A stretch of 60,739 nucleotides of DNA from Ktedonobacteraceae bacterium (GTDB lineage: Bacteria > Chloroflexota > Ktedonobacteria > Ktedonobacterales > Ktedonobacteraceae): NCBI GenBank assembly GCA_035653615.1, contig DASRBN010000016.1, forward strand, positions 1 to 60,739, read 5' to 3'. This document shows positions 22,796-41,000 of this stretch, piece after piece (the stretch's first letter is position 1; every line of letters starts with the position of its first letter). The position numbers were made by a program, and so were the translations under genes. The notes under the pieces were generated by a model. It had not been told where the DNA came from and did no database searches. It saw only the letters and a list, made by a program, of their open reading frames with translations.

Positions 22796-23053
22796 TAGGG
22801 GCCAGATTATGGAGTTTGACGAAATAATCTAGCAATGGGCGCGAGGCCGATCATGGGTTTTCACAACAGAGTCCGGTAACGGGCGCGAGGCCGATCAATC
22901 GGCGGTGTGTACGGTATGCCTGTCCCCCAGACAGGACTGCCCGGCCCCTACGGCTGCGCCGTGGGGATGCATTGTCCGGCTGCGCCGTAGGCCCCGATTG
23001 ATCGCGGGCAGCGCCGATTGATCGGCCCTGCGTCCATTATCGAGTAGTTTCCG
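22796..23053. repeat. Long family-B composite palindromic element
   Basis: Begins TAGGGGCCAGATTAT just after valS and ends near CGAGTAGTTTCCGC. It contains inverted unit pairs (GGCCGATCAATCGG and CCGATTGATCGG; CGGCTGCGCCGTGGGG and CGGCTGCGCCGTAGGC). It also carries a diverged copy of the ATCATGGGTTTTCACA segment seen as direct repeats at 3735-3843. With the 22764-22795 spacer and the promoter at 23299, this accounts for most of the ~620-bp gap before the GAF gene; the rest (23054-23298) shows nothing. Confidence 0.75.
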
Positions 23054-23298
23054 CATGGGCATGTGCGGCTATCATTGCCAGGACTATCAGTACGAGACTG
23101 TAGATGTGTGGGATATAGGCCAACCAGGGGCTGGACTGGCCGTGAGATTGCTCCATTCCTTTGCTTGCCTCTACAAGAGGTGGGATTTCACTTGCATGCT
23201 TAAAGTCTAAGCTGATGTAAGGAAATCTACATCGTTAGAATGGCCTATTTCTGGCCGCATATCGCTAAGGCTTATGGGTAAATATCAGATTTATAATA

Positions 23299-23327
23299 TT
23301 GACAGCCTTTCCCCTTTTCATTAGAAT
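23299..23327 (+). promoter_or_regulatory. Sigma-A-type promoter for the GAF/subtilisin pair
   Basis: TTGACA at 23299-23304 and TAGAAT at 23322-23327 with a 17-bp spacer, 55 bp before the GAF gene start. Confidence 0.7.
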
Positions 23328-23381
23328 GAACTCACCTTAGTAGCCGGTGCCATAGAACCTTGCTTCGTTGAAAGGGTTGCC

Positions 23382-24272
23382 ATGGACGATGAAAGTTTGA
23401 CTGAAGGCCAGAATGGGTTGAGTCAGGCCCACAAAACCATAGCGGAACAGCAGGCGGAGATCGAGCAACTGCGTTCAAGACTCGCGAATGAGAATTTTAC
23501 GCAAGTTCTGCGTACAGCGTTAATAACTGCTTCCACAGCAGCCACGATTGCCTCGCCGGTGACACATTCGCAATTGCTGGAGATGATCGTCGCAACTGCC
23601 GCGCATATCCTTTCCGCGCAGGCCGCGTCCCTCTTCCTGATCGATAACCATACGCAGGAACTCATCTTTGAAGTGGCTCTTGGGCAGAAAGCGGATGAAG
23701 TGAAGAAATTTCGCATCCCGCTGGGTCATGGTATTGCCGGGCTGGTAGCGGTGAGCGGGCAACCAATGGCGGTTGCGAACGCCGAGAGCGACCTGCGCCA
23801 GGCCAGCGATGTAGCCCGGGCCGTCGGTTATGTGCCACGCAACATCCTCTGTGTTCCTCTCGTCTACAACGATAGGACTATAGGAGTTCTTGAACTACTC
23901 GACAAGACGGGAGATAGCTCTTTCGGCATCGATGATATGCATGTGTTGAGCATGTTCGCGAACCAGGCCGCGGTCGCTATTGAACAATCACGCATGCATG
24001 ATAGCCTGGTTCCCTTGATCGTCGAAGTGTTGCAGTCAGCCGGTGGCATTGCAGAACAAACGAAGGAAGAGCTCCAGCAGCAAGCGTTAGACTTCATCAC
24101 GGCTATTGAGGAAAGCCCGGCGTATCACAATGCCATGAAATTAGCCAGGCTGATACACGAAATCTCGTGGCAAGGTGACGAGGAACTCAAATTGTGCTAC
24201 GTGATTCTCAGCAATTTCGCGGAATATTTGAGGGCGAGGGCGAAAGCTACTTCTGAGCTGGGGTGGCTGTAA
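23382..24272 (+). CDS. GAF-domain sensor protein
   Basis: A 296-residue cytosolic protein starting at ATG 23382 behind AAGGG. A short coiled coil (KTIAEQQAEIEQLRSRLANE) precedes a GAF domain at about 65-205, with AQAASLFLIDNHTQELIFEV, IPLGHGIAGLVAVSGQPMAV and RNILCVPLVYNDRTIGVLEL. The C-terminal ~90 residues are helical and not recognised. There is no output enzyme, so it must signal through a partner. The stop codon shares one base with the ATG of the subtilisin gene, implying translational coupling and probable joint function. GAF ligands range from cyclic nucleotides to small metabolites; none can be named here. Confidence 0.82.
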   Translation: MDDESLTEGQNGLSQAHKTIAEQQAEIEQLRSRLANENFTQVLRTALITASTAATIASPVTHSQLLEMIVATAAHILSAQAASLFLIDNHTQELIFEVALGQKADEVKKFRIPLGHGIAGLVAVSGQPMAVANAESDLRQASDVARAVGYVPRNILCVPLVYNDRTIGVLELLDKTGDSSFGIDDMHVLSMFANQAAVAIEQSRMHDSLVPLIVEVLQSAGGIAEQTKEELQQQALDFITAIEESPAYHNAMKLARLIHEISWQGDEELKLCYVILSNFAEYLRARAKATSELGWL

Positions 24273-25108
24273 TGATAACGCGACAGCCGGAGTGGAGCAA
24301 ACCTTTCACCGCCGATGCTCTACAGAAACTCACTCCTGTCCTGCCTCTTGATAACATTACTCGTGAATGGGCCTGGGAAGGAGGCACCGGCAAGGGGGTC
24401 AAGGTGGCCGTGATCGATAGCGGAATCGATGCTTCGCACCCCGCTATTGGCGCTCCCCTGAGCGGCTACGTCACTGTCATTGAGAAACCGGAAGGTATGC
24501 TGCTCGATACCGCGCCGCATGGGGATTCGTATGGGCATGGCACTGCCTGCGCCGGTATCATCCGCTCGCTTGCCCCAGATTGCGAACTCTATAGCATCAA
24601 GGTATTGGGAGAAGGATTGAGCGGGCGCAGCACGGTCTTTGCAGCCGGCCTGCGCTGGGCCATCGAGAACGGCATGCATGCCTGCAATTTGAGCCTGGGA
24701 ACGACCAAAAAAGACTTCTACGCGCTGCTGCACGAACTGACCGACCTGGCCTACTTCCGTAATGTAGTGCTGGTAACCGCGGCTAATAACATGCCGGTCC
24801 CCAGTTTCCCATCGGTCTATGCCTCGGTCATTTCGGTAGCGGCGCACGAGGGAAAAGACCCGTTTGTTTTCTACTATAACCCACATCCGCCGGTAGAATT
24901 TGGCGCGCCAGGCATCGATGTACGCGTAGCCTGGAAGAACGGAGAATGGCTCACAACCACGGGCAACAGCTTCGCCGCCCCACATATCACAGGCATCATA
25001 GCCAGGATTCTAAGCAAGCATCCCGGATTGACGGTGTTTCAGATCAAAGCCATCTTGCGCGCTTTATCCTCTAATATGACGCGAGATGGCAGCGAGCACC
25101 AGGTGTAG
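24272..25108 (+). CDS. Subtilisin-like (S8) serine peptidase without signal peptide
   Basis: I chose ATG 24272 (278 residues), which overlaps the GAF stop by one base; a GTG at 24263 is also possible. The catalytic triad is complete: Asp in VAVIDSGID, His in YGHGTACAGI and Ser in TTGNSFAAPH. The oxyanion Asn is likely in VTAANNMPVP. There is no signal peptide, no propeptide and no extra domain, so it is a minimal, probably intracellular subtilase. Overlap with the GAF gene suggests that the two act together, perhaps as regulated proteolysis or a peptide-processing pair. The TAG stop is the start of a family-B repeat. Confidence 0.88.
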   Translation: MITRQPEWSKPFTADALQKLTPVLPLDNITREWAWEGGTGKGVKVAVIDSGIDASHPAIGAPLSGYVTVIEKPEGMLLDTAPHGDSYGHGTACAGIIRSLAPDCELYSIKVLGEGLSGRSTVFAAGLRWAIENGMHACNLSLGTTKKDFYALLHELTDLAYFRNVVLVTAANNMPVPSFPSVYASVISVAAHEGKDPFVFYYNPHPPVEFGAPGIDVRVAWKNGEWLTTTGNSFAAPHITGIIARILSKHPGLTVFQIKAILRALSSNMTRDGSEHQV

Positions 25109-25171
25109 GGGCCAGATTATCGACTTTGACAAAATAATCAAGTAATGGACAGAAGGCCGATTTATCGGCCT
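25106..25171. repeat. Family-B element at the subtilisin stop codon
   Basis: Begins TAGGGGCCAGATTAT, whose first codon is the stop of the peptidase, and ends with the small palindrome GGCCGATTTATCGGCC. Confidence 0.75.
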
Positions 25172-25205
25172 TCCCGGGATGACCAGGGTAATTTGTAAAA
25201 CTCCA

Positions 25206-26567
25206 TCATCGCGCCTGGGGTGGGGCCTCAACGCCTGCATCTTCCTTTGCCTCAGCAGCCCGCACCTGGGGAAGCACCAGCAAAACGAAGACACCAACCA
25301 GGGCCATAGCAACTCCTGCGACGGCGAAGACGTAGCCCAGGCCAAACAGCGTGGCGAAGAGCGCGCCAAGCGGCGGGGCCAGCACCTGAAAAAACGTTTG
25401 CAGCCCTATCGCAGCGGACGAAACGCGGCCCATCAGCTGGGGCGGCGTTTCTTTTTGTAAAATATAGCCGTAAGGTACGAAGATGGCGGCTCCGGCCAGA
25501 CCCATAAGCAGCCAGATTGGCAACCACCCGGCGCCCACGCCCCTGATGGCAATAATCAACGCCAGACCAAGGATGGCAACCAGAACCCCGCTCATCACTT
25601 TGCCCGCGCCTATCAATCCCAGTGGATGAAAGCGATTGCCCCATTGGCCAACGATTACCGCGCCAATAGCAGTGCCCAGGCCTACCGATCCGACGGCCAG
25701 CCCCAGGTAGGCCTGATTGAGTCCCAGTTGTTCAACGGAAAGCGCCGCCAGCGAATCAAAGGTAAAAATGATGAAAATTGTGACCATCATACTGCCAACG
25801 GCAATGGCGAGGACCTTGCGATGCACGATATAGCTGATTCCGGCCACGAACTCGGACCAGAAATTGCTTTTCGGCGCTTCTTCCTGCTCTTCCTGGGATG
25901 GTAGTGCTGCCTCGATCCCGGCAGATTCTTCGCTTTGCTCAGAATGACGCGCTTGCACCATGTCATTCTGAGCAAAGCGAAGAATCTCCTGCATACTCGG
26001 TAGCTGGCTCAGGATGATGGCGGAGAGCAGGAAGGAGAGCGAGTCGGCGACGAAAGCGGCCTTCGGGCCGGCGGCCAGCACGATCACGCCGCCGATAGCC
26101 GGGCCAATCACCTTTGTGATTTGCGTTGAAAGCTGGCTCAGTGAATTTGCTGCCAGTAGATCATCCTCCGGCACTGTAAAACGAATCGTAGCCTGGCGCG
26201 CGGGGTCGAAAAAGGAGGTGAATATGCCTGCCGCCAGCACCAGCGCCAGCAAAACGTAGAGATTTGGGGCCCACACCAGCCCAAGCACCACAACCGCCCG
26301 CGCCAGGTCACAGGCGATCATTACGGTGCGGCGAGGCCAGCGGTCAACCCATACGCCGGCGAAAGGCGCTACCAGTATCGAGGGCAGGATGAGGGCCACC
26401 GAGAGCGCGGCCAAAGCTCCCGCCCCCAACTTCCAGGTAAAAGTAATCAGGCTGAGCAGCGCCAGCAAATCCAGCCAGTCGCCGAGATCAGAGATGACCT
26501 GGCCACCAAACAGCAGGCTGAAGGCCCGGTGTCGTAAAGGGGCCAGAATGGTAATGCGCGATATCAT
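25206..26567 (-). CDS. MFS exporter, probable RiPP export protein
   Basis: The start is ATG 26567 behind AGGAG, giving about 453 residues; the open frame extends to 26621 without a better site. It is a 12-helix major-facilitator protein of the MFS_3/EntS-like exporter group. The family motif A appears as FAGVWVDRWPRRTVM after helix 2. The central cytosolic loop between helices 6 and 7 is odd: about 40 residues (ILRFAQND, RHSEQSEES, PSQEEQEE) come partly from an inverted pair of family-A repeats lying in frame. It is the last gene of the minus-strand RiPP-like cluster, 50 bp after the metal-enzyme gene. Export of the mature peptide is inferred from context. Confidence 0.8.
   Translation of the reverse strand: MISRITILAPLRHRAFSLLFGGQVISDLGDWLDLLALLSLITFTWKLGAGALAALSVALILPSILVAPFAGVWVDRWPRRTVMIACDLARAVVVLGLVWAPNLYVLLALVLAAGIFTSFFDPARQATIRFTVPEDDLLAANSLSQLSTQITKVIGPAIGGVIVLAAGPKAAFVADSLSFLLSAIILSQLPSMQEILRFAQNDMVQARHSEQSEESAGIEAALPSQEEQEEAPKSNFWSEFVAGISYIVHRKVLAIAVGSMMVTIFIIFTFDSLAALSVEQLGLNQAYLGLAVGSVGLGTAIGAVIVGQWGNRFHPLGLIGAGKVMSGVLVAILGLALIIAIRGVGAGWLPIWLLMGLAGAAIFVPYGYILQKETPPQLMGRVSSAAIGLQTFFQVLAPPLGALFATLFGLGYVFAVAGVAMALVGVFVLLVLPQVRAAEAKEDAGVEAPPQAR
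25924..25986. repeat. Inverted pair of family-A repeats inside the MFS gene
   Basis: Copies at 25924-25948 and 25962-25986 are exact inverted complements of each other (with TTTG in place of the usual TGCG) around a 13-bp spacer. They keep the MFS reading frame open and encode part of the central loop. Confidence 0.9.
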
Positions 26568-26592
26568 GATTGCTCCTATGACTGGTGGGAGC

Positions 26593-26617
26593 GGGCGACT
26601 ACAAGGATCGCCCCTAC
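26593..26617. repeat. Family-D repeat
   Basis: GGGCGACTACAAGGATCG followed by CCCCTAC. It abuts the stop codon of the metal-enzyme gene at 26618. Confidence 0.65.
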
Positions 26618-27316
26618 TCAAGCGATATTAGCTGCGAGCCTGGCCATACCTCGCTCAACCACGTCACGGATAGCCTGGCTACCAAGGTGTACTGTCTGCA
26701 TGGCGCTCACGCCAACAATCGAAGCCTGCTCCTGCGTCAGCGGCAGCTCGTCCAACGCGGCGTTCAGGTCATCCCGGTGGTGAGGATCGAGGTGCGCATG
26801 TTTGATTACGGTGCGGAAGGCCTGGCGCGGCAATCCGGTGCGCGCAATTTGCTCATCGACCTGTTCCAACGTCGGTGGATAGCCCTCCATCACCGCGATG
26901 TAGCCGAGCAGCGCCACGGGATGGTAATGAAAGATCCAGTAATACTGCGAGCCAACCATGGCCGCTACCGAAGGATAGGGCGCTCTCTGGAGAATCTCTC
27001 GCCGGTCGTAGCCGAGCACTTCCAGGTCATCTAGCAGCCAATCGTCGTGATGCATCTCCTCGCGGATATGCTTTGCCAGGTACCTGGCTACACCGGTAGC
27101 TACAGGATCATTCTCATCCATAGCGCGTGCCTGGCGGAGCGCCGCCTCCATCAAGGGAACGCTGGCGCGGATCATGGAGTGCATGGTGAACATGTACTCG
27201 GGATACAGCTCGGCGAGGCGCGGGTTGCTGGTGAGCGCGTAGCCGGCCGCCATCAGTTCCGGTAGCACTATTTCAATTTTGTAACGCAATCGTGCGCTGT
27301 TGCTGATTGTTGTCAT
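26618..27316 (-). CDS. Heme-oxygenase-like (HDO/TenA-fold) iron enzyme in the RiPP-like cluster
   Basis: A 232-residue all-helical protein. ATG 27316 overlaps the stop of the upstream radical SAM gene by 4 bp (ATGA). The likely metal site has H83, E86/E87 and H89-H90 in AKHIREEMHHDD, H130/H132 in WIFHYHPVALLG, E144, and H173/D177/H180 in IKHAHLDPHHRD. The spacing resembles iron-dependent heme-oxygenase-like oxidases, which cleave C-C or C-H bonds or oxidise amines using O2. Such an enzyme beside radical SAM maturases and precursor peptides suggests a tailoring step. The exact reaction, and whether the site binds one or two irons, cannot be read from sequence. Confidence 0.7.
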   Translation of the reverse strand: MTTISNSARLRYKIEIVLPELMAAGYALTSNPRLAELYPEYMFTMHSMIRASVPLMEAALRQARAMDENDPVATGVARYLAKHIREEMHHDDWLLDDLEVLGYDRREILQRAPYPSVAAMVGSQYYWIFHYHPVALLGYIAVMEGYPPTLEQVDEQIARTGLPRQAFRTVIKHAHLDPHHRDDLNAALDELPLTQEQASIVGVSAMQTVHLGSQAIRDVVERGMARLAANIA

Positions 27317-28311
27317 CTGTCGATCTGTCCTCCCATTACTGCCATGGCATTCAATAGCCGGTCTGATCTATCTCCTAGAGGATCTGCGCGTCTCTGCATC
27401 GCCCAGCAAAGATCGCACATGCCTCGAAATTCCTTTTTCGCAAGATCCGCGTACTTTGGATGCATCGTCAGCGCGCCAACGCCCATCCTGTGTACCACCT
27501 GTAGCAATGGATCGGCGCCGAACAAATCCAGCGCCTCGCGCAGTTCCTCTCTTGTCTTGCACTGGCGACGCAGCCGCGGTGATCCCCAGCCCATCAGTAC
27601 ATGTTCATTACAGCACGCGGTAACAATGCCGTCATAGCGAATCATCTGCGCTGAAACGTTATCGCAGGCTGGAAACACCTCACCGGGCCAGCGTTCGCCC
27701 GTTTTCGAGAGGAATATCTTCTCCCCTCTGCCCGCGGAGAGAGGGATGACCCGTTTAAATTCCACATAGTCGGTGACACGGTCGCCAAAGGCCTGATCTA
27801 GCAGTCGTTCGGCCCGCTGCACCATTGCGGGAATATCCAGCACCTGAACGACCATCCAGGCAGCTTCCTCAGCGATGGTACGCGCCGCACGGATGAAGCG
27901 CTCGTCATCGATGCTGGCGGCATGGAACGAGTCGGTGCTGAGAAAGACACAGCTTGCGCGCCTGAGAACCTTGCGAATCCAGTCCGGGATCTCGGCGTTG
28001 GCCCACACGCCGCTGGTGTAGATAACGATATGCTTGCTATCAGCAAGGCGCTCGGTTGCCAGCGCCAGCCCGCGGCGCTCAACGAAGGGTTCTCCACCGG
28101 TGATGCCGACCATCTCCACCTCCGGTCTGTTCCGAATTTCATCAATGATCGCTTCGAAGAGCGCAAAGTCGCTGATGCTGGGGCTATCAGGGCGCGAATC
28201 CACCGAGCAATGCGCGCAACCAACAGGACAACGGTCGGTGATGAACAGGCCGATGGAGCGCCCCCGCGTGTTGCGCAAGTAGCCGACCTCGTCCAATTTC
28301 AATTGACGCAT
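27313..28311 (-). CDS. Radical SAM peptide maturase, second of a related pair
   Basis: A 332-residue protein from ATG 28311, overlapping the upstream maturase gene by 13 bp. The radical SAM cluster motif is RCPVGCAHC (CX3CX2C, residues 28-35), followed by GITGGEPF, the SAM-binding glycine motif. A C-terminal part has YDGIVTACCNEHVLMGWG and MCDLCWAM, matching the twitch/SPASM pattern that binds an auxiliary iron-sulfur cluster in peptide-modifying enzymes. It shares CPxxCAHCS and the YDG-x-I-x-ACCN block with its neighbour, so the pair arose by duplication. A radical modification of the co-encoded peptides is likely; bond type is unknown. Confidence 0.82.
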   Translation of the reverse strand: MRQLKLDEVGYLRNTRGRSIGLFITDRCPVGCAHCSVDSRPDSPSISDFALFEAIIDEIRNRPEVEMVGITGGEPFVERRGLALATERLADSKHIVIYTSGVWANAEIPDWIRKVLRRASCVFLSTDSFHAASIDDERFIRAARTIAEEAAWMVVQVLDIPAMVQRAERLLDQAFGDRVTDYVEFKRVIPLSAGRGEKIFLSKTGERWPGEVFPACDNVSAQMIRYDGIVTACCNEHVLMGWGSPRLRRQCKTREELREALDLFGADPLLQVVHRMGVGALTMHPKYADLAKKEFRGMCDLCWAMQRRADPLGDRSDRLLNAMAVMGGQIDR

Positions 28312-29375
28312 AGTTCTCTCCTCTCCGGGTCGTAGCCGAGACCGAGCATGTACTGGTAGGCCTGAATGCCGAAACTCGAACGTTGCTGCTGGATTGTCAC
28401 CAGCTGGCGCTCGACGAAGCGCATGGTCTGACGGGCCATCAGCGGTGCGAGTCGTTCAGAGATCGCCGGATCATCAGCCAGCCTGTAGCAGGTGCTGCAA
28501 TAGCCGTCGCAGTCTACTTTGCCCGCGCTGTGGCGATTCGCGATATATTCGGGACCAAAGACACGAATGGCGCGCAGTAGATTTGATTGCAATAAACGCC
28601 CGGAGATGGTAGTCCAGTCGTCTTCCAGGGAGTGTCCGAGGCGGAGATGGGGCGGCACCGGGCCATCTACGACCTCCTGGTTGCAGCAGGCGATGATCGT
28701 TCCATCATAGGTCATTACGGGCCAGGTGGCGAGTCCGCACGGCTGGGGAGCAATGTCTAAGGGAGCATAGTGCTCGCGTTCCTCTAACCACTCCCTGGCG
28801 CGTCCTACCGCGTTCACGGGCGCGACATATGCTGGGACGCGGTCATTGAAGGTGCGCCGGATATCGGCGGTGACATCGGCCAGGTAGGGGTCGTTTTCGT
28901 CCATCCCGACCACCTGGATACTCACATCCTGGCCGCGCTCCACCAGTGCCTTCAGAACGCGAAACACAGCGGCCCGTGGCACCTGCTGCTCGTGAAAGAT
29001 GTCGAGGCTGGCAGTGAAGTGGTCCAACCCGGCAATAGCGCGCTCAATGGATGGCGGTATCTGCTGCTGGCGCGCAAAGAACATGCCCGAAGTCAAGGAG
29101 ACGCGAGTACCTGCCGCGTGAGCAAGTTCGATTAACCGCTGGACCAGTCTGGGTCGCAACAAAGCTTCTCCGCCTGTGAGCATCAGCACCTGCGGGTGGT
29201 TAGCCGGCGTGAAGGTTTCGACAAAGCGCAGGAATATCTCTCCGGCGTACTGCTCACTGGTCATAAGCGAGTTCGTGGAGCAGTGAGCGCACTTAAGCGG
29301 GCAGCGCCTCGTCAGCGACAGGAAGAGCCCCGCAGCGGGTATTGGCCGTAATTTTATAATTTCCATGACGTGCAT
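28299..29375 (-). CDS. Radical SAM peptide maturase, first of a related pair
   Basis: A 358-residue protein. I chose ATG 29375, which has AGGAGG at 8 bp; a GTG at 29384 lies too close to that site. The core motif is TRRCPLKCAHCSTNS (CX3CX2C), with VLMLTGGEALLRP as the SAM glycine motif. The C-terminal part has YDGTIIACCNQEVVDG and CDGYCSTCYRLADD, which can hold an auxiliary cluster. No B12 or peptide-recognition (RRE) domain is evident. It directly follows precursor A1 by 46 bp and is coupled to the second maturase. Together they suggest two sequential or cooperating radical reactions. Confidence 0.82.
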   Translation of the reverse strand: MHVMEIIKLRPIPAAGLFLSLTRRCPLKCAHCSTNSLMTSEQYAGEIFLRFVETFTPANHPQVLMLTGGEALLRPRLVQRLIELAHAAGTRVSLTSGMFFARQQQIPPSIERAIAGLDHFTASLDIFHEQQVPRAAVFRVLKALVERGQDVSIQVVGMDENDPYLADVTADIRRTFNDRVPAYVAPVNAVGRAREWLEEREHYAPLDIAPQPCGLATWPVMTYDGTIIACCNQEVVDGPVPPHLRLGHSLEDDWTTISGRLLQSNLLRAIRVFGPEYIANRHSAGKVDCDGYCSTCYRLADDPAISERLAPLMARQTMRFVERQLVTIQQQRSSFGIQAYQYMLGLGYDPERRELCVN

Positions 29376-29421
29376 GCAGTACACCTCCTATTGCTTAGCC
29401 CTGCACTACTATAGTCTCCCG

Positions 29422-29634
29422 CTAATAAATGAAGTAGCCTACTCCACTCTCCGGCCACGATTGAAATGCCAGGATGCTTGCATCGATTTGCTCTTTGCTG
29501 GCAAGCAGAATCTTCAATTCTCCCGGTGAAAGCGTAGTCAGTACCTCAACCTGCTCGCCGGGTATCTGTTCCAGAGTGAACCCGGCGCTCTTTAAAACAT
29601 TGAGCGATTTGTTTGTGTCAAGTTGTTGCGGCAT
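29422..29634 (-). CDS. RiPP precursor peptide A1
   Basis: A 70-residue peptide from ATG 29634 behind AAGGGG. The leader-like part has LNVLKSAGF, then EQVEVLTTLSPGELKILLAS and a KEQIDAS segment. The C-terminus is WPESGVGYFIY. It aligns with A2, 175 bp upstream, through shared xG, EQ, LSPxE, (I/L)D and the terminal pattern G-x-G-x-F-x-Y. Short length, an acidic helical leader, an aromatic/glycine tail and position in front of radical SAM genes identify it as a likely RiPP precursor, with the core in the last ~8-12 residues. I do not recognise the leader as Nif11, NHLP or another named type. Confidence 0.78.
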   Translation of the reverse strand: MPQQLDTNKSLNVLKSAGFTLEQIPGEQVEVLTTLSPGELKILLASKEQIDASILAFQSWPESGVGYFIY

Positions 29635-29679
29635 ACATCTGAACCCCTTAGCTGAACTTGCCCAAATTCTGTATGATCG

Positions 29680-29785
29680 GTGACATCCCATGAGCGGGAT
29701 GTCACCAGTACTTCTCCCTCTCTCTCATCGCTCACCCGAAAGGTGACCTGGAAGCCGAAGCCCCTGGTAACCTTTCCGGGTGACA
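29680..29785 (-). promoter_or_regulatory. Two hairpins between the precursor genes
   Basis: Hairpin 1 is a perfect 10-bp stem (GTGACATCCC 29680-29689 with 29696-29705, 6-nt loop). Hairpin 2 (about 29731-29785) pairs CACCCG-AAAGGT with ACCTTT-CGGGTG. Neither has a U-tract; they may set processing or relative levels of the two precursor transcripts. Confidence 0.5.
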
Positions 29786-29808
29786 TTTAGCGAAGGACTA
29801 GAAGTATC

Positions 29809-30009
29809 TTAGTAATAGAAGTTGCCATTACCCTTGGCGTAACCCTGCACATCGGCAGCCTCGTCCAGACGCTTTTTCGTCCTTACCAGCACATCCACTT
29901 CCTCGGGGCTGAGTGAGGATATGACCAGGCGCTGCTCCTCGTTCATGGTGTCGGTATTCATACCAACCTCTTCCAAAGCCTTGATCGGATCTGGTTGATT
30001 CTGGGTCAT
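29809..30009 (-). CDS. RiPP precursor peptide A2
   Basis: A 66-residue peptide from ATG 30009 behind GAGGAGGT, one of the strongest ribosome sites in the window, as expected for an abundant precursor. The leader has IKALEEVGMNTDTM, EEQRLVISSLSPEEVDVLV and a TKKRLDEA segment. The tail is VQGYAKGNGNFYY. Terminal G-x-G-x-F-x-Y is shared with A1 (GVGYFIY versus GNGNFYY), while the middle of the tails differs, consistent with two related products. It lies directly downstream of the B12 radical SAM gene. The precursor role is inferred from size, homology and context. Confidence 0.8.
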   Translation of the reverse strand: MTQNQPDPIKALEEVGMNTDTMNEEQRLVISSLSPEEVDVLVRTKKRLDEAADVQGYAKGNGNFYY

Positions 30010-30421
30010 AGAAGAATTACCTCCTCTTTTCTTAGTAAAGTGACAGTTGTGTTTAGATCGGTTTGTCGCAAACCGGTGGCCTTCGCGTGAGAGCGAAGCC
30101 TTTATGTTATGAAATCCTGGAATTATTAGCGGCCTTATCACCTCTTTCTCTTAATGGAGCTTCCTGATATCCCGGTGGACGATCACAAGATTCGCCCCTC
30201 ATAAATTTTTCCAACCGGATCGGGCGCTGCTGTAGGGCGCGGGGACAGGCACGAGGCGCTGTCCCTACAGGATATGGGACGCAGACGCCCCTTATTCCCT
30301 GCTCTGATTGTCAAAATTCATCAGGAGGATGGCCGGCCCTCCTGACGGTTGGGATATCCGGCAGGCCTTCCCTGCTCAAGGCCGCTGCGCGCGGCATGAG
30401 AAAACCCACGCCATACGTTTG
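30010..30421. other. Leader/intergenic region between B12 radical SAM and precursor A2
   Basis: About 410 bp without a gene. It holds a small hairpin (CTTCGC/GCGAAG near 30080), an inverted family-C unit (30241-30270) and a degenerate family-D unit near 30182. A separate promoter for the precursors could lie here, but I see no clear -35/-10. Confidence 0.5.
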
Positions 30422-32557
30422 TTAAAGAACGCCTTTCGAGCGCAGCAGTAATTCCTTGAGTATTTGATAGGCCGCGCTTCCCTGGTTCCCTACCTCGACC
30501 ATCTGCGATGTCAGGGCAATGTAATGGCCGCTCGGGTATATTTCCAGTATCTCTTCCTTTCCCTCTGCCAGCGCATCTTGCTGGGGTGGGTACTCGGCTA
30601 ACCAGTTCGTCAACCGCTTGAAATCGGGGGTCTGTCCCTGAAAACGCTGCTGGAAGTAATAATCCGCGACCTCCGACCGGTTCAGAACCCCATCAACGTT
30701 GCGAAGAGGCGTTCGATACTGAACCGTCTCGATAATGGGCTGCGTCGGCTTATCATTGCGTTGTTGAACGGGGACCAGGCAGGGTCCGTACTTTGCGAAG
30801 TACAGGATACTATGGTTCGTGTCTATCCCGCCCACGAAAGGGCGATTATCCCGAAATGACTCCAATGATGCTGCTACCTTATTAATGGCCGTGGTTCGCA
30901 TATCTTGTGGATTGCGCACCCTGCCATCATGGTCTATCCAGTAGAGGCTGCGTATGATGTCGTCGCCGGAATATGCTCCAATTTTCTGGATGCCGAAATC
31001 TTGATAGCGTTTCGCCACAATAGAGCCTCTGGTCAGCACGAAATCCCCGATTCCGGCCAGCGTCCAGTAGTCGTTGTGTTCAAGCAGAAACTCGAAGGTG
31101 GCACGCGCCTCTTCAGGTGTTTCAGTCGGAAAGCCGATGAAGCCCATCATCTGCGCTCCAATGCCCGCGCGCGCCAGTTCTCGCAGCACTTCCGGCACCT
31201 GGTCGAGGTGTACCCCTTTATTAATCAGATTGAGAACGCGCTGCGAGCCAGATTCATAGCCAAATGAGATGGCAACGCATCCCGCGTTTTTCAATTCGTC
31301 TGCTAATCCTTGTCTGAAAGTGCGTTCCAGGCGCAGCTCCGCGCTCCACCGGATGTCAATTCCATTTTCCTGGATGGCATGGCAGAGCTTGCGCAAGTAG
31401 GACGGCGAGATTGCGTCCACCGAAAAGTAAAGCGTGCGGGCAAAGCGCGTGATGTTTCGCAATTCCCGTATCGTGGCCTCGATGGGCCTCATGCGCGAGG
31501 GCGAAGTTGGAGAATCGGTATTGAGTCCATAATCACAAAAGGTGCATTTATTCCAGTAACAGCCTCGTGTCGGCGAATAGAGGACAACGGGTTCGGGAGA
31601 CCAGTACTGCTTCCAATCCCAGATGTCGTACCTGGCATCGGCAAGCGCGGCTAAGTTTTCGTACCGCGCCGCCGGCTGCATAATTGTTACCGGATCGTCT
31701 GGCAGCAGTATTCCTGGGCGCTGCCGGGGCAGGGGCTTACGCTCGCGTATCGCATCAAGTATCTCGATAAGCGCCGTTTCCCCCTCACCCGCTACAATGA
31801 CATCGCAATCGGGGAATAGCGTCCATATCTGCCGCGGATCGTTCAGGTACTTAATGTCATCGCTGATCTCCGTTCCGCCCAGGCAAATGATGCACTCCGG
31901 GCGCAAAGATCGGATGAGCTTGCACATGGCAATGGCAAAAGGCAACTGGTCGGCATAGTTGACAGAGAGGCCGACAAGGTCCCAGGCGCGGCTCAGAATA
32001 GTATCAGCGAAAGGACCGTTAAGATACGGCGAGAACGGATTCAGGAGCCTGTTCAGGCAGGAAGGGTTGGTCAGGTCGCCGATACTGCTGAGATTGCCTA
32101 CAACTGTAGGAACGAATGCGAAATTATGGAACTGGCCGGCAAATCCCTGCACAGACAAAAAATCCAGCCAGCGATTCATTATCATGACCGCATGACGATA
32201 TAAGCCATAGTCATAAAATGCCTCTGCATCCTGCAAGATCGCTATCGCCTGGCGTACCATGCATGGCTTGAAACCGACTGCCGCTAAAGCGTAACGGTAC
32301 GTGAGCTGCTCGCCGCGCGTTAACCGCCCTTTCTTCTCCAGGCGAAGGCGGATATCCTCGCAATACTGGAGCTGACCGGCAACCTGTTCCGGCCGCGCCA
32401 GGTAATTGAGGGCTTCAATATTGGCATCAAGGCAGGTGATATTTGTATAACCGGCATTAGATGTCGCACCCACAAGATAAGAAATCGAATGGTAAGGGGC
32501 AGTCGGGTCGGTCAGCGGCGTATTGATAAGCAGGTACTGTATCTCGTCGTATTTCAC
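30422..32557 (-). CDS. B12-binding-type radical SAM protein with CX4CX2C motif
   Basis: A 711-residue protein with start GTG 32557 behind TAGGGG. The N-terminal half resembles the cobalamin-binding arrangement of class B radical SAM enzymes: WDLVGLSVNYADQLPFAIAM, ECIICLGGTEISDDIKYL and DCDVIVAGEGETALIEILDA. The Elp3-like radical SAM core starts at VLYSPTRGCYWNKCTFCDYG (about residue 330), where the cysteines are spaced CX4CX2C instead of CX3CX2C. VAISFGYESGSQRVLNLINK and MGFIGFPTETPEEA are typical of the fold. The C-terminal ~150 residues are unassigned. Such proteins methylate or rearrange unactivated carbons. It is first in the RiPP-like cluster. Confidence 0.8.
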   Translation of the reverse strand: MKYDEIQYLLINTPLTDPTAPYHSISYLVGATSNAGYTNITCLDANIEALNYLARPEQVAGQLQYCEDIRLRLEKKGRLTRGEQLTYRYALAAVGFKPCMVRQAIAILQDAEAFYDYGLYRHAVMIMNRWLDFLSVQGFAGQFHNFAFVPTVVGNLSSIGDLTNPSCLNRLLNPFSPYLNGPFADTILSRAWDLVGLSVNYADQLPFAIAMCKLIRSLRPECIICLGGTEISDDIKYLNDPRQIWTLFPDCDVIVAGEGETALIEILDAIRERKPLPRQRPGILLPDDPVTIMQPAARYENLAALADARYDIWDWKQYWSPEPVVLYSPTRGCYWNKCTFCDYGLNTDSPTSPSRMRPIEATIRELRNITRFARTLYFSVDAISPSYLRKLCHAIQENGIDIRWSAELRLERTFRQGLADELKNAGCVAISFGYESGSQRVLNLINKGVHLDQVPEVLRELARAGIGAQMMGFIGFPTETPEEARATFEFLLEHNDYWTLAGIGDFVLTRGSIVAKRYQDFGIQKIGAYSGDDIIRSLYWIDHDGRVRNPQDMRTTAINKVAASLESFRDNRPFVGGIDTNHSILYFAKYGPCLVPVQQRNDKPTQPIIETVQYRTPLRNVDGVLNRSEVADYYFQQRFQGQTPDFKRLTNWLAEYPPQQDALAEGKEEILEIYPSGHYIALTSQMVEVGNQGSAAYQILKELLLRSKGVL

Positions 32558-33088
32558 TGTGGTTCCCCTAACGTTTTACCATGAAAAAGACTCTCGCGCA
32601 TGTCATTCTGAATGAAGTGAAGAATCCGCAGCACGTACTTGATCGATCTGGCTCAACAGAGCTTCTTCCCCTTCGTTGCTCAGGGCTTCGGCTTCTTGCG
32701 CTCAGAATGACACGTCCGAACTGGTTTTTAGCGGCATGCTATTTTCACGTTCATAAACTTGCTACACAGTAAACGGTGCCTATGAAGAAATTTAGCACCT
32801 CAATCGTAGGGATGTATCCTGGTAGTCGCCCGCACGTGTGCTTGTAAAAAGAAAAATATGTGGCTTTTCAAGAAGATGAGAGGCCGATTGGCAGGAGAGA
32901 CGAACATTCGCAAGTGTGCCTGACGAAAGAGACAGTTTCAATTGAAAGAAGATTGGTTCGTAGTAATTACTGAATGGGGAAGCACATGTTATTGAAAGGG
33001 TTGGAAAGAAAATAGGGTGCTTGAGTGCCGTGTGATGCATTAAGATGTACCACACAACGCTCAAGCACTCCGTTTGCGGCAAATTGTT
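32558..33088. other. Intergenic region upstream of the RiPP-like cluster
   Basis: About 530 bp. It holds diverged family-A units (near 32602-32627 and 32695-32713), a family-D unit (32806-32831) and the ABC-transporter terminator at 33017-33068. The promoter of the cluster should be here but is not evident. Confidence 0.5.
33017..33068 (-). terminator. Terminator of the ABC transporter gene
   Basis: GTGCTTGAG (33017-33025) pairs with CTCAAGCAC (33060-33068), with a partly paired inner GTGTG/CACAC. On the minus strand a U-rich stretch follows (CCCTATTTTCTTTCC), fitting intrinsic termination. Confidence 0.7.
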
Positions 33089-35071
33089 CTATATTGCCAT
33101 CTCTTCCTGCGCAATTTGGGAGAACTGCTCGTTATACAACTTCGCGTAGAGGCCGTTGCGCTCCAGCAGTTCCTCGTGGGTGCCGCGCTCCACGATCTCG
33201 CCATGATCTACCACCAGGATCACGTCTGCCGCCAGGATAGTCGAAAGGCGGTGCGCAATTGCCAGCGTTGTGCGATTCTTCATCAATGGCTCCAACGCGG
33301 CCTGAATCAGGCGCTCGGAGTGCGTATCGAGCGCGCTGGTGGCCTCGTCCAGGATCAGGATGCGCGGATTCTTGAGAATGACACGGGCGATGGCGATACG
33401 CTGCTTCTCGCCGCCGGAGAGCTTGAAACCTCGCTCGCCGACCAGCGTCTCGTAGCCATCGTCGAGTTCCATGATGCGATCATGGATGGCCGCGGCCTTC
33501 GCTGCGGCGATCATCTCCTCCTCGGTCGCATCGAGTCTTGCATAGAGCAGGTTTTCGCGAATGGACGCGTTGAACAGGTACGTTTCCTGCGTCACCACGC
33601 CGATGATATCGCCGAGCGAGGACAACGCGATGTCCTTGACGTTATGCCCATCGATTTCTACGGAGCCGCTGTCCACGTCATAGAGACGGGGAACGAGATA
33701 GGTGATCGTGGTCTTGCCCGCGCCACTTGGCCCGACCAGCGCGGCCAGTTGTCCCGGCTGGATGTCGAACGAAACATGGTTCAGCGTCGGACGGTCCGTC
33801 GTTTCCAGTACCTGCTCGGTCATCGTCACCGGCACGGCTACGACCGGCTTATCCGCCTTGCCATTACCTTTGCCGTCACCATTTGTTTTGCCATTATTCG
33901 TATCCAGTCCGATCAGGCTGCTAATGGACTCATCTCGCTTGTACGTGAATGAGACATCGTTGAATGTAATCTCGCCACGCACGTCATCATTCGTCAGGTG
34001 AAGAGGATTGGGCGAATCCTGTATATCAATCGGCAGGTCCAGGTATTCAAAGATGCGGTCGAACAGCGCCAGCGCGCCCTGGATATCTACCTGTATGCTC
34101 AGCAATTGCCCTATCGGGAAGAACAACCTGCTTTGCAGCGTCGTAAAGGCCACGATGCCGCCGAGGGTAATTCCTGAGTGCAGCGGATTATTGATAATTT
34201 GCCAGCCCGCGACCAGGTAGACTACCGCCGGGGTGATCGAGAAAAAGGTGCCGATGAACATGAAGAACCAGCGGCCAATCATCTGCTGGCGCACTTCCAG
34301 GTTGGTCAGGTTTTGATTCTCTTTCTCGAAGCGCTCCTGGGCATATTTCTGGCGCCCGAAGGTCTTGCTCAACAAAATGCCACTGACCGAGAGCGTCTCC
34401 TGCATCATAGCGGTCAGGGCGGCCATACTCTGCTGCGTCTCCTTGCTCGTCACCCTGCGCACGTTGCCGACCTTATACGTGATCCACAAGAAGATCGGCA
34501 GCAGGCCAAGCGATATCAGCGTCAATAGCGGGCTGATGAAAAGCATGGCGATGATCGTACTCAGCGCCGTGGAGACATTAGAAACGATGCTGGTTGCCGT
34601 ATTCGTCACTACCCCCTGCACGCCGCCTACGTCGTTTGATAAACGCGACTGGATCTCACCGGTCTTGGTGGAAGTAAAGAAGCGCAGCGACAGGCTCTGC
34701 AAATGTTCATAGAGTTTATTGCGGAAATCGCGCATCACCTGTTGACCGATCATATTATTCAGATAGGTTTGCCCAACGCCGATGATACCGGTAATGATGG
34801 GCATAATGATCATGATACCAACAAAGATGATCAGCAGGTGCAGGTTGCGTTTTCCAATCGCGTCATCAAAAATGAACTGGATCAGGAACGGGTTGACAAG
34901 CCCCAACACGGTCGTGAGGATGATAGCGATCAATACGAGTATGATCTGAAATTTATACGGACTAAAGGCCGCCGCCACGCGCCGCACGGTTCGTGAGTCG
35001 GTCTTACGTCCCCGTTTTTTCTGTTCTTCGGCATAGGCGGCCATACCGCCGCCCATTCCATGAAATGCCAT
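33089..35071 (-). CDS. MsbA-like ABC exporter, fused permease and ATPase
   Basis: A 660-residue half-transporter from ATG 35071 behind GGAG. Six transmembrane helices fill about residues 40-340 ([20 protein letters not shown], then [20 protein letters not shown] and others). The ATPase has Walker [11 protein letters not shown] (about 445), the signature [14 protein letters not shown] (about 548), Walker [13 protein letters not shown] (about 572) and the H-loop AHRLST (about 603). A ~45-residue Asn/Gly/Lys-rich insertion ([18 protein letters not shown]) interrupts the first strands of the ATPase, just before Walker A. It probably works as a homodimer exporting lipid, drug or peptide. It lies upstream of the RiPP-like cluster on the same strand but behind its own terminator. 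Confidence 0.92.
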
Positions 35072-35199
35072 AGAATATGTACTCCAATCTAGCCCCCAGG
35101 CCCTGATCTAAAGTATAAACCATTCCCCGGCTGATTACACCGTCTGAGTGGACAGTTTACGACCCTGTAAATTCTGACAGGCCTGGAGGCAGAATGGTT

Positions 35200-35526
35200 T
35201 TACAGTTTCTGCTGGCGTTTTTTCAACTCGCTCTCCCGTCTCCTGATCTCCCTCTCGCGCTTGCGTCGCTGTAGCTCTTTATAGCGTTGGGCGTCTTTCA
35301 TGCGAATGCTGACCGTCACAATGACGAGGATAAATAGCACAAGAGAAAAGACGGCCGTAAAGCTGACGTAGGCAGCTACCCAGAAGAGTAATCCCGGCGT
35401 CAATCCTATTCGCTCGACGAGAGCGTTAAGAACGAGTCCGGCCAGAATTGTGAAGAGAACAGCATCTATGCCCAGCACTACAAAGAACAGCTTGACCAAT
35501 GCCGGATGACTTATTGTGCCTTTCAT
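35200..35526 (-). CDS. Small two-helix membrane protein
   Basis: A 108-residue protein from ATG 35526 behind AGGAGGAGG, a very strong site. Two transmembrane helices (about 10-33 and 45-70: LVKLFFVVLGIDAVLFTILA, VSFTAVFSLVLFILVIVTVS) are followed by a highly basic coiled-coil tail (RRKREREIRRRESELKKRQQ). No family is recognised. The basic tail could bind nucleic acid, acidic lipids or a partner at the membrane. It lies 128 bp upstream of the ABC exporter and may be co-transcribed with it. Confidence 0.6.
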   Translation of the reverse strand: MKGTISHPALVKLFFVVLGIDAVLFTILAGLVLNALVERIGLTPGLLFWVAAYVSFTAVFSLVLFILVIVTVSIRMKDAQRYKELQRRKREREIRRRESELKKRQQKL

Positions 35527-35718
35527 TGCCTCCTCCTTTCGCCCGTGATGTCGAAGTGCTAGATATGGGCTATACCGGTGAGCTTATTGTTGCCAGGCAT
35601 ATGCTCGAACTCACAACAAACAAAACGGGAAGAAGACGCCTCTATCAAAAATGTCTGGTGTATTCGCACTTTACCTTTTCTGGTTGTACTTTTCTCGATC
35701 TCCTGTTTGGGATTGAAA

Positions 35719-36399
35719 CTACGCAGCCAGATCGTCACGTCGAAGACAAATTACTTGCGCCAGCCGTTTGTACGCCAGACTGAGCAGGGAAGCGTGCCGG
35801 CTTTTTGCCACCGGATCATTTGGAAGCAATCCCTGATAGTCCTGCAAACGAATCCCTACATCTAAGAAAGCCTGTTGCAACGCTGTTGGTTGCCCGTCTT
35901 CAAAGGACATGCGACTTGCCAGGTCTATTAAGAGCGCATTACGTGTCGCCGCAGGGAATCCGGCTACCACATGCGCGATCTTGGTAAAGAGCCAGCTGGT
36001 GTACATGGTATCGAACGCTAATTCTGCCGGGTCTACCAGGTTGTCTAGCTTGATTTGTCCTCCCGCTAAGCAATCGTCCTGATCGAAACGAGTCAGCCTC
36101 CCCTCTTTTCGCAGCCGGTCTAGAAAATGGTTCCTGGCAATTCTCATGCTCAACCTTTCCAGCGAGATAATGGCGATACCACCATATTGGGCTTTTAAAG
36201 CGTACTCAAATGTACGCCCGACAGCAAAAAGTACTATGTCCCATGCCACATCACTTTCCTGGCCATACCAGGAATTGAGATGGGCATTGTAAACCCAGTA
36301 GTTGACAATGGGGAACAGCTTTGAATAAAGGAGGCCCCAGGTGCCATCTCCGGTCTGCTCGATTGTAACGCTTTGGGACGAATGGTAGAAGCTATTCAT
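35719..36399 (-). CDS. Sigma-70-like RNA polymerase factor, divergent
   Basis: 226 residues from ATG 36399 (GAGAGG ribosome site; the GTG at 36405 lies inside that site). A segment resembling sigma region 2 is seen at about residues 85-115 (LSMRIARNHFLDRLRKEGRL), with an aromatic and basic pattern like the promoter-melting helix. The C-terminal region (LPNDPVAKSRHASLLSLAYKRL, about 190-220) could be a region-4 HTH. The start ...DGTWGLLYSKLFPIVNYWVY is unusual. No anti-sigma factor gene is adjacent. Assignment as an ECF-like or orphan sigma is likely but not certain. A hairpin in its 5' leader could be an autoregulatory site. Confidence 0.6.
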   Translation of the reverse strand: MNSFYHSSQSVTIEQTGDGTWGLLYSKLFPIVNYWVYNAHLNSWYGQESDVAWDIVLFAVGRTFEYALKAQYGGIAIISLERLSMRIARNHFLDRLRKEGRLTRFDQDDCLAGGQIKLDNLVDPAELAFDTMYTSWLFTKIAHVVAGFPAATRNALLIDLASRMSFEDGQPTALQQAFLDVGIRLQDYQGLLPNDPVAKSRHASLLSLAYKRLAQVICLRRDDLAA

Positions 36400-39462: not shown

Positions 39463-40131
39463 ATGACGGTCTATCTGTTTATACTGGGAATGCCTGGTAG
39501 TGGGAAATCAAGTATTGCGCGCTTTATTCAAGCATACGCAGAAGTCAAACATTGGATCGCCAGATCGCATTATAATGATTATGAGATTTTGCACAGTATG
39601 TTCGAAAACGATAGCGCCTGCAAACAATTTAGGCCCGCTGATGGTGGTGGCTTTGATGTTATTGATCTGACCGCATTTGATACCGCGCTTCAGAAGTTGG
39701 AGGAGATAGTTAAAAAAGATGCCTCTCCGGCCCATAGAGAAGAAGTTGTCTTGATCGAATTTTCTCGTGCCGATTATCAACGTGCTTTCCGTCAATTCAG
39801 CAAAGCATTTTTGCAGAACCAAAATACATTTTTCCTCTACCTTGACACCGGGCTTGATATTTGCAAGCAACGAATAAAAAACCGCGTAACCGACCCGCGT
39901 TATGCGGACGATTATCCTGTCTCCGACTATATCTTTGAAAAATATTACCATCAAGATGATGGAGAGCTTCTACCTGATATGCTTGCACAGGAGTATCAGA
40001 TTGAGCGCGAACAGGTGAAAATAATCAAGAATAATGGCCCATTGGAAGTTGTTGCGGCAGAAATTCGTGCGTTTATTGATTTTATAATCAGCGAGGTTTC
40101 TAAGCATTTAGTCAAAGCAGGCGCATCCTAG
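39463..40131 (+). CDS. P-loop kinase-like ATPase, paralogue 1
   Basis: A 222-residue protein starting at ATG 39463 behind GGGGAG. A Walker A loop lies at the very start (FILGMPGSGKSSIARFI). A Walker-B-like hhhhE segment (EEVVLIEFSRADYQRAFRQF) and a lid region (CKQRIKNRVTDPRYADDYPV) follow. The C-terminal YIFEKYYHQDDGELLPDM block is highly conserved in the neighbouring paralogue. The fold resembles small-molecule or nucleotide kinases, but no substrate motif is recognised. It starts 200 bp after the MerR-GAF-GGDEF gene, and a second copy follows, suggesting a recent tandem duplication in an accessory region. Confidence 0.65.
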   Translation: MTVYLFILGMPGSGKSSIARFIQAYAEVKHWIARSHYNDYEILHSMFENDSACKQFRPADGGGFDVIDLTAFDTALQKLEEIVKKDASPAHREEVVLIEFSRADYQRAFRQFSKAFLQNQNTFFLYLDTGLDICKQRIKNRVTDPRYADDYPVSDYIFEKYYHQDDGELLPDMLAQEYQIEREQVKIIKNNGPLEVVAAEIRAFIDFIISEVSKHLVKAGAS

Positions 40132-40361
40132 ATACTCTAGAGATTCTTCTATTCTCCTGCTGTTTCCCATCCTTATCCGGGTTGTTAAAAGCCCTTGCTT
40201 TCTGCCTGTTTTTCAGCATGAAATCGCGCAGGAAAGCATAAAATCATTCGTTGCCGCAATCCTCTGGCATGTGCAATCCCTCATGAAATATTTCAATATG
40301 TACATCTTTGTGTTAAAATTAGCCATTGTGTTCCAATCGCAAACGAGGGGAAGGTATTATC

Positions 40362-41000
40362 ATGCCAATTAAACTGTTCCTTCTAGGTCTGCCAGGCAGC
40401 GGCAAATCGACGGTTGCGCGCTATATTACAAACTATGTAGAAGATAGGAAGTGGGCGGCGAAACATTGCGGCGATTATCCTTTTCTATACACAATGTTTG
40501 AGAAGGATATGAAGCACAAGCAATTTATGCCTGCCAAAAATGGCGGTTTCGATATGGTTGATCGTACTGTACTCGATATTGCCTTGCAGCAATTGGAACA
40601 AAGTATCCGCGAATATATCTCTAAAATGCAATCGACGAAGATCATTTTGATTGAATTTTCTCGTGCTGATTATCAACACGCTTTCTCGCAGTTCAGTAAA
40701 GCATTTTTGCAAGATCAGAATACCTATTTCCTCTACCTGGATACTGAGCTGGCTATCTGCAAGCAACGCATACAGAATCGTATAGACAATCCCCTTTTTG
40801 AGGATGATTATCCCGTCTCCGAGTACCTTTTTGAAAAATATTACCATCAGGATGATGGACAACTGCTACCAGATTTCCTCGAAAAAACATATCAGATCGA
40901 CCAGCAGCGGGTGAAGATCATTTCCAATAACGGCCCATTAGAGGCAGTAACAGGAGAAATTGAGGCTTTTCTCCACGCAATGCTGGGAAAGCTGCCATGA
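40362..41000 (+). CDS. P-loop kinase-like ATPase, paralogue 2
   Basis: A 212-residue protein from ATG 40362 (GAGGGG site); a start at 40326 is in frame but weaker. It has Walker A LLGLPGSGKSTVARYI and the block TKIILIEFSRADYQHAFSQF, in which the same hhhhE motif is kept. It ends with YLFEKYYHQDDGQLLPDFLE. Identity to the upstream paralogue is high across the whole length, with differences concentrated in the region after Walker A (residues 20-90), the likely substrate-recognition part. The 230-bp gap between the copies contains no repeat. Kinase activity is inferred only from the fold. Confidence 0.65.
   Translation: MPIKLFLLGLPGSGKSTVARYITNYVEDRKWAAKHCGDYPFLYTMFEKDMKHKQFMPAKNGGFDMVDRTVLDIALQQLEQSIREYISKMQSTKIILIEFSRADYQHAFSQFSKAFLQDQNTYFLYLDTELAICKQRIQNRIDNPLFEDDYPVSEYLFEKYYHQDDGQLLPDFLEKTYQIDQQRVKIISNNGPLEAVTGEIEAFLHAMLGKLP

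Follow-up and report, generated by a model that had tools for sequence, protein, structure and literature searches.

A C-terminal glycine-aromatic rule in two putative aroma-sacti RiPP precursors of a Ktedonobacteraceae bacterium, and its link to YydG-like radical SAM enzymes and a haem-oxygenase-like di-iron enzyme

Two short genes of a Ktedonobacteraceae bacterium encode proteins, here called A1 and A2, that share landmarks in their leaders and end in GVGYFIY and GNGNFYY, respectively; the question raised by this locus is what becomes of these ends, and which of the neighbouring enzymes act on them. We have analysed the whole stretch of 60,739 nucleotides in which the two genes lie, referred to throughout as the window. 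Both proteins are present, with these ends and at the lengths given in Table 1, where a preliminary description had placed them. Their sequences are best explained if both are precursors of RiPPs and belong to the aroma-sacti leader family; a C-terminal piece of roughly nine residues is probably cut away and chemically altered by radical enzymes together with a di-iron enzyme. The gene set, the leader family, the tail rule, the link between tail and enzymes and the conserved catalytic residues described below are seen directly.

Table 1. Features of the precursor locus, in positions of the window
Feature	Position	Strand	Basis or remark
A1, precursor, 70 aa	29422..29634	(-)	aroma-sacti leader; ends GVGYFIY
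A2, precursor, 66 aa	29809..30009	(-)	aroma-sacti leader; ends GNGNFYY
A1 predicted core WPESGVGYFIY, last 11 residues	29425..29457	(-)	boundary placed by alignment with relatives
A2 tail, residues 56-66, predicted unstructured	29812..29844	(-)	pLDDT <50
rSAM1, YydG-like radical SAM enzyme, 361 aa	28299..29384	(-)	TIGR04078 top match, PDB match, Cys set
rSAM2, second YydG-like radical SAM enzyme, 332 aa	27313..28311	(-)	TIGR04078, YydG profile match, Cys set
HDO, haem-oxygenase-like di-iron oxidase, 232 aa	26618..27316	(-)	PF14518; six MboA ligands aligned
MFS transporter, probable exporter	25206..26621	(-)	PF07690; relatives in similar loci
B12-binding radical SAM protein, 711 aa	30422..32557	(-)	NCBIfam/Pfam matches, relatives
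S8 (subtilisin-type) protease, probable leader peptidase	24263..25108	(+)	PF00082, 99.8 bits
GAF-domain protein	23382..24272	(+)	PF01590, 66.5 bits

When called mechanically, the open reading frames of A1 and A2 start further upstream and are longer (89 and 110 aa, respectively); purine-rich stretches lie just 5' of the shorter starts (AAGGGG for A1, GGAGGT for A2). Only two leader families of NCBIfam, NF045560 and NF045559, match these proteins. NF045560 (aroma_sacti_dom) scores 61.3 bits with A2 and 30.6 bits, barely above its cut-off of 30, with A1, so that both belong to this family. A profile built from the precursors of relatives, with the window left out, gives 60.1 bits for A2 and 40.5 bits for A1, the best of 4000 shuffles used as a control reaching 8.2 bits. 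In a three-way alignment of A1, A2 and a distant relative, the A2 leader residues G16, Q26, L33, P35 and E37 are invariant; this alignment and the NF045560 scores bear out the common landmarks at matching spacing that had been described. The profile of the relatives' precursors would place the core of A2 at about its last nine residues.

The preliminary description had itself named the alternative that would speak against its reading, namely that A1 and A2 are not precursors but ordinary folded proteins of small size. In an AlphaFold2 model of A2, built from three sequences, the leader part is indeed predicted to form three helices (residues 8-14, 24-31 and 35-55) with a pLDDT of about 85-88, but the tail is predicted to be unstructured (residues 56-66, pLDDT <50), is hypervariable upstream of its conserved end and is tied to the enzyme set; moreover, Foldseek with this model finds no fold match in the PDB at E 0.001, and the layout of leader plus core recurs in 53 relatives. 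We consider this alternative very improbable. NF045560, the relatives and the profile support the view that A1 and A2 are precursors of the RiPP type, which have a leader in common, a short C-terminal core that varies, and radical SAM enzymes as neighbours.

The second leader family is the StsA-related model NF045559, with which A1 scores 16.2 and A2 25.1 bits against a cut-off of 75, so that neither is a member. The leader domain common to this model and our precursors is what can be said for a sactipeptide-like thioether product. Such a product would fit the family's name, but we give it almost no credence: A1 and A2 contain no Cys that could act as donor, a substrate without Cys contradicts this chemistry, and Cys is found in the last 15 residues of 0 of 36 aromatic-ended relatives. 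On the lack of Cys in A1 and A2 the sactipeptide reading was rejected.

Between A2 and A1 (29635-29808) the minus-strand RNA folds unusually well (-70.4 kcal/mol, z -4.4, with 0 of 200 shuffles as good) and includes a 12-pair hairpin; an Rfam search of positions 23000-36000, this hairpin included, gave no match. The RNA structure may set the levels of A1 and A2.

Relatives of the precursors were found mostly outside the Chloroflexota. The leader occurs in 6 of 396 genomes (4 above the cut-off) of the phylum of G400, an Actinobacteria MAG that carries locus L010, and in 45 of 150 genomes (44 above the cut-off) of one actinobacterial family; this family was chosen as that of one of the phylum matches, and a repeated sampling of it contributes no independent data. 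Of 54 places fetched, L112 was dropped as not being a precursor by its context, and regions of 5.9 to 20 kb were compared around 53 precursors, together with L010, L033 and L034. The statistics of the tails (n = 57) comprise the 53 precursors and L033, L034, L010 and L032; L035-L037 and L038 were left out. Among Chloroflexota the leader scores above the cut-off in 1 of 41 relatives and in 1 of 400 genomes of the phylum, the window's own genome both times, and rSAM1 was found among 101 genomes only in the window's own. A contig scan with rSAM1 alone produced 10 pattern matches and no relative. Plasmid searches returned one weak match for rSAM1 and none for A2; those with the B12 enzyme returned 98 records, 1 of which covers at least 80% of the query.

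The last seven residues of A1 and A2 are identical at 4 of 7 positions in fixed register, with p ~4.6e-4 from the residue frequencies of the window, a rough value because both proteins are related anyway. An aromatic residue (F, W or Y) ends 38 of the 57 precursors, the remaining 19 having other ends. Gly is found at -5 in all 38 aromatic-ended relatives, as in A1 and A2. Reduced to 12 distinct tails over the last 7 positions, the relatives have Gly at -5 (12/12), G, A or V at -4, L, A, V or G at -3, L, V, F or I at -2, and F (8) or W (4) at -1; upstream of this conserved end the tail is hypervariable. A1 (G-Y-F-I-Y) and A2 (G-N-F-Y-Y) conform to this pattern, their last residue being Tyr, and the tail rule is, as read from this alignment, G(-5)-x-x-hydrophobic-aromatic(-1). 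The invariant G-x-G-x-F-x-Y end that had been predicted is ruled out by the same alignment, in which Gly is absent from -7, Phe from -3 and Tyr from -1. Homologues with another motif, which had been named as evidence against the earlier reading, thus do exist as far as the exact motif is concerned, and a broader C-terminal rule takes its place.

This rule is linked to a pair of enzymes. A locus with relatives of both rSAM1 and HDO surrounds 37 of the 38 aromatic-ended precursors, versus 0 of the 19 others (Fisher p 3e-14, which is not a true probability because the relatives, most of them from one bacterial family, are not independent); counted by distinct tails over the last 6 positions, the link is found for 10 of 11 aromatic and 0 of 11 other tails. 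In the sole exception, L086, rSAM1, rSAM2 and HDO lie ~23 kb off in the same genome. A search independent of the leader, with rSAM2 as the query, led to 10 of 345 genomes and to 8 loci with adjacent precursors, all 17 of which have Gly at -5 and an aromatic end. No recognisable aroma-sacti precursor adjoins rSAM1, rSAM2 and HDO in L125 and L127; these two clusters also hold S8, GAF and a cyclase/AAA protein. On three small contigs (L035-L037, 3.6 to 11.2 kb each), where rSAM1 was not found, HDO adjoins leader-like small proteins that end in Val (AEWV, MVHV, AHMV), so that an aromatic end is not always needed in a partner of HDO; a cyclase/AAA/TPR protein also adjoins HDO there. A separate group of precursors, ending in IKLA (L069, L073, L083, L110, L111), adjoins a radical SAM/SPASM protein that is only 25-26% identical to that in L010. 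Of all the enzymes, HDO, which was absent from the preliminary description, shows the closest tie to the aromatic tail.

In sequence, rSAM1 and rSAM2 resemble peptide epimerases of the YydG type. Each finds its best NCBIfam match in TIGR04078 (YydG family epimerase), with 58.9 bits for rSAM1 and 42.1 bits for rSAM2; the cut-off is 300 bits, and neither belongs to the epipeptide YydG equivalog. YydG is also the top PDB match of each, and the rSAM2 profile aligns with it over positions 18-304, nearly the whole length (E 9.6e-14); the Cys pair falls in register, as do three other Cys. The Cys residues lie at 28/32/35, 216, 233, 234, 296 and 299 in rSAM1, and at 28/32/35, 216, 233, 234, 299 and 302 in rSAM2. 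The ACCN motif of both aligns with Cys222-Cys223 of YydG, whose place in the chain we counted from the alignment assuming a 25-residue tag, as the length of the protein leads us to suppose. In YydG, Cys223 gives the H-atom that completes epimerisation (PMC5682303 and PMC8326336, each in part). What the YydG mechanism calls for, an H-donor Cys next to a cluster Cys and a C-terminal cluster Cys, is found in rSAM1 and rSAM2, the further Cys being aligned for rSAM2. With the window included, the second Cys of the pair is kept in 30 of 33 rSAM1 and 6 of 6 rSAM2 sequences; the exceptions have Gly (2) or Thr (1), and all 3 belong to clusters that also contain rSAM2, so that rSAM1 may do something else there. 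From an alignment of two sequences, AlphaFold2 gave a poor model of rSAM1 (mean pLDDT 45.2).

Cross-linking or C-methylation had been the chemistries suggested for the terminal aromatic residues. In the first, the radical SAM enzymes would join the tail aromatics (F, Y) to their neighbours in a cyclophane or similar ring, which would agree with the aromatic residue at the end of every tail in this group; cyclophane-forming radical SAM enzymes are widespread in RiPP pathways. Most tails, however, have one aromatic residue, at the very end, and Leu, Ala or Val elsewhere; rSAM1 and rSAM2 keep the Cys that quenches the C-alpha radical in YydG; and among the 25 NCBIfam matches listed for them there is no cyclophane-maturase family, the YydG epimerase coming first. 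Cross-linking, like sactipeptide chemistry, is therefore the less likely course, and we judge it unlikely in its own right. The two smaller radical SAM enzymes would rather be epimerases of the YydG type, and C-methylation is kept as a possibility by the B12 enzyme.

HDO belongs to PF14518 (45.0 bits, cut-off 28.9). A profile of 12 HDO sequences matches MboA with E 0.0017, and E87, H90, E144, H173, D177 and H180 of HDO align with the MboA ligands Glu86, His89, Glu143, His172, Asp176 and His181 (PMC13185094, in part), so that the full set of 3 His and 3 Glu/Asp ligands is present. These six residues are conserved in 31, 31, 33, 33, 33 and 33 of 33 HDO sequences, respectively, two sequences being shortened or frame-shifted through the choice of ORF. 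In MboA the C-terminus of a tripeptide is bound at Fe1 and the C-terminal residue is oxidised (desaturated) (PMC13185094, in part); the haem-oxygenase-like VarO acts in a RiPP pathway (PMC6511847 and PMC8120280, each in part), probably as a dehydrogenase (PMC6511847, in part). A tail rule that is counted from the C-terminus is what an MboA-like enzyme would need.

The B12 radical SAM protein has among its best NCBIfam matches TIGR03975 (84.0 bits, cut-off 281.85) and ApyD NF050148 (73.9 bits, cut-off 750), both below cut-off, so that it falls outside the RiPP C-methyltransferases of TIGR03975; in Pfam it belongs to Radical_SAM (59.4 bits) and stays below the threshold of B12-binding (29.0 vs 32.1). 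Its cluster motif is C-x4-C-x2-C (C333, C338, C341) and not the usual C-x3-C-x2-C, with the three Cys invariant in four aligned relatives. That it C-methylates is an expectation from its family. ApyD, a related member, makes beta-methyltyrosine (PMC10635010, in part). The precursors near its relatives vary, with an aroma-sacti leader in L010, a Nif11 leader in L011 (Nostoc mirabile, 58% identical), an NHLP-like one, below cut-off, in L012 (L013 and L014 being similar by eye), and unclassified ones in L015 and L005. Many of the cores are Asn-rich (ADTNNNLC in L010, KNNINNNIKG in L011, SNNICC in L015), as is A2 (GNGN), while A1 is not. In the Actinoplanes loci L012-L014 the ends adjoining the B12 enzyme (~5050-5410) are NNVNNNLYQSK, GNNNINLYQSK and INVNINLYQAK.

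These Asn-rich cores, together with the activity of ApyD, could be taken to mean that the tail serves the B12 enzyme, A2 being a C-methylation substrate of the Asn-rich type which the rest of the cluster serves. We find this quite unlikely: there is no Asn in the tail of A1, the precursors in two B12-enzyme clusters end in DVVIFRIG and DINLVRIG, and the B12 enzyme, present in 7 of 47 loci, occurs with rSAM1 or HDO in 0 of 47 and thus cannot explain the tail rule. An Asn-rich tail as the rule of the B12 enzyme is kept as a rival only, because A1 and the two other precursors misfit. A B12-enzyme relative (43%) also occurs on Sinorhizobium meliloti plasmid pAK76 (L005, 8480-13473), with a flavoprotein, two oxygenase genes (one annotated 2OG-Fe(II), one an unannotated ORF at 12289-12888) and a 72 aa precursor-like ORF (12087-12305) that ends in GGQNC; judging by its genes, this locus is a RiPP-like cluster of another kind.

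In the window the minus-strand genes follow one another in the order B12 radical SAM, A2, A1, rSAM1, rSAM2, HDO, MFS, and the ends of rSAM1/rSAM2 (28299/28311), rSAM2/HDO (27313/27316) and HDO/MFS (26618/26621) overlap, as in a coupled operon. An MFS protein 39-42% identical to that of the window adjoins the same enzymes in L080, L084, L123 and L124. The S8 and GAF genes are on the opposite strand to the precursor cluster, which counts against the best explanation. Across the loci, rSAM1 and HDO occur together in 32 of 47 (5 of these 32 also with rSAM2), and S8 and GAF relatives in 40 of 47, including all 32, with the GAF gene beside the S8 gene in 40 and S8 beside the precursors in 40. The nearest layouts are those of L074 (precursors, rSAM1, rSAM2, HDO) and of L084, L123 and L124 (rSAM1, rSAM2, HDO, MFS); the window combines the set of two epimerase-like enzymes with the B12 enzyme, a pairing absent from the 47 comparison loci. 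In the open-licence literature searched we found no description of such a combination, and no match for the term 'aroma-sacti'. Further along the window, on the plus strand, two similar P-loop proteins (39463-40131, GMPGSGKSSIARF, and 40326-41000, GLPGSGKSTVARY) form a tandem pair of paralogues.

We regard it as rather probable, from the sequences, that this locus is a RiPP cluster whose products are short peptides containing D-residues and ending in an oxidised aromatic residue; the reactions, the cleavage site, the order of the steps and the activity of the A1/A2 cluster are all what we infer. The helical leader (about residues 1-56) would recruit the enzymes, leaving as core only the last 9-11 residues. 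rSAM1 and rSAM2 would remove the C-alpha H of core residues and return an H from the enzyme Cys, yielding D-residues as YydG does, and the B12 enzyme would probably C-methylate a core residue, more likely in A2. HDO would bind the free C-terminus and oxidise the terminal aromatic residue, most likely by desaturation, as MboA does on a tripeptide; the S8 protease would then cut off the leader, and the MFS protein would export the short peptide. The order would be leader binding, epimerisation, methylation of A2, oxidation by HDO, removal of the leader, and export.

These features can be set beside known systems. Both precursors match the leader domain of NF045560 above its cut-off, but that model covers the leader only, and neither its name nor its description includes the tail rule or the tie to rSAM1 and HDO. 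As in the epipeptides (YydF/EpeX with YydG/EpeE), the window has radical SAM enzymes of this kind, in which the catalytic and cluster Cys recur, and a short C-terminal core without Cys; it differs in having two such enzymes instead of one, as well as HDO and the B12 enzyme, in its leader family, and in scores that stay far under the cut-off of the YydG equivalog. MboA (mangotoxin) and VarO (thiovarsolin) are of the same fold family as HDO, in which the six MboA di-iron ligands align, and MboA modifies a short peptide at its C-terminal residue (PMC13185094, in part), as is proposed here for HDO; the substrate of MboA, however, ends in Arg, whereas that of the window ends in an aromatic residue and comes with peptide epimerase-like enzymes, and thiovarsolin derives from a YcaO/TfuA cluster (PMC6511847, in part). 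The B12 protein resembles RiPP C-methyltransferases (TIGR03975, ApyD) through its best matches, and differs from them in scoring below their cut-offs and in its C-x4-C-x2-C motif. In proteusins of the polytheonamide type, epimerisation by radical SAM enzymes goes together with methylation by B12 radical SAM enzymes. The window likewise pairs an epimerase-like with a B12 radical SAM enzyme, but has neither an NHLP nor a Nif11 leader and is thus not a proteusin cluster. The peptide epimerase of the proteusin type is described in PMC8326336 (in part).

More tentatively, and with doubt slightly outweighing confidence, we propose a class of RiPPs read by HDO, in which the free C-terminus is recognised by way of Gly(-5) and the terminal aromatic residue, and the latter is desaturated or oxidatively decarboxylated once one or two YydG-type enzymes have introduced D-residues into a core some nine residues long. 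The cluster of the window would be a hybrid, to which the B12 enzyme adds C-methylation. If this is true, the peptide of the window carries three kinds of radical or oxygen chemistry. The set is not rare, with 45 of 150 genomes of one actinobacterial family carrying the leader. If the reading is right, a loosely named leader family becomes a testable type of pathway, with a C-terminal rule that predicts which enzymes act; HDO, of an enzyme group whose known substrates are chiefly amino acids and very short peptides, would work on the C-terminal aromatic residue of a ribosomal peptide, and the cores of about nine residues would offer compact substrates for the study of radical epimerisation.
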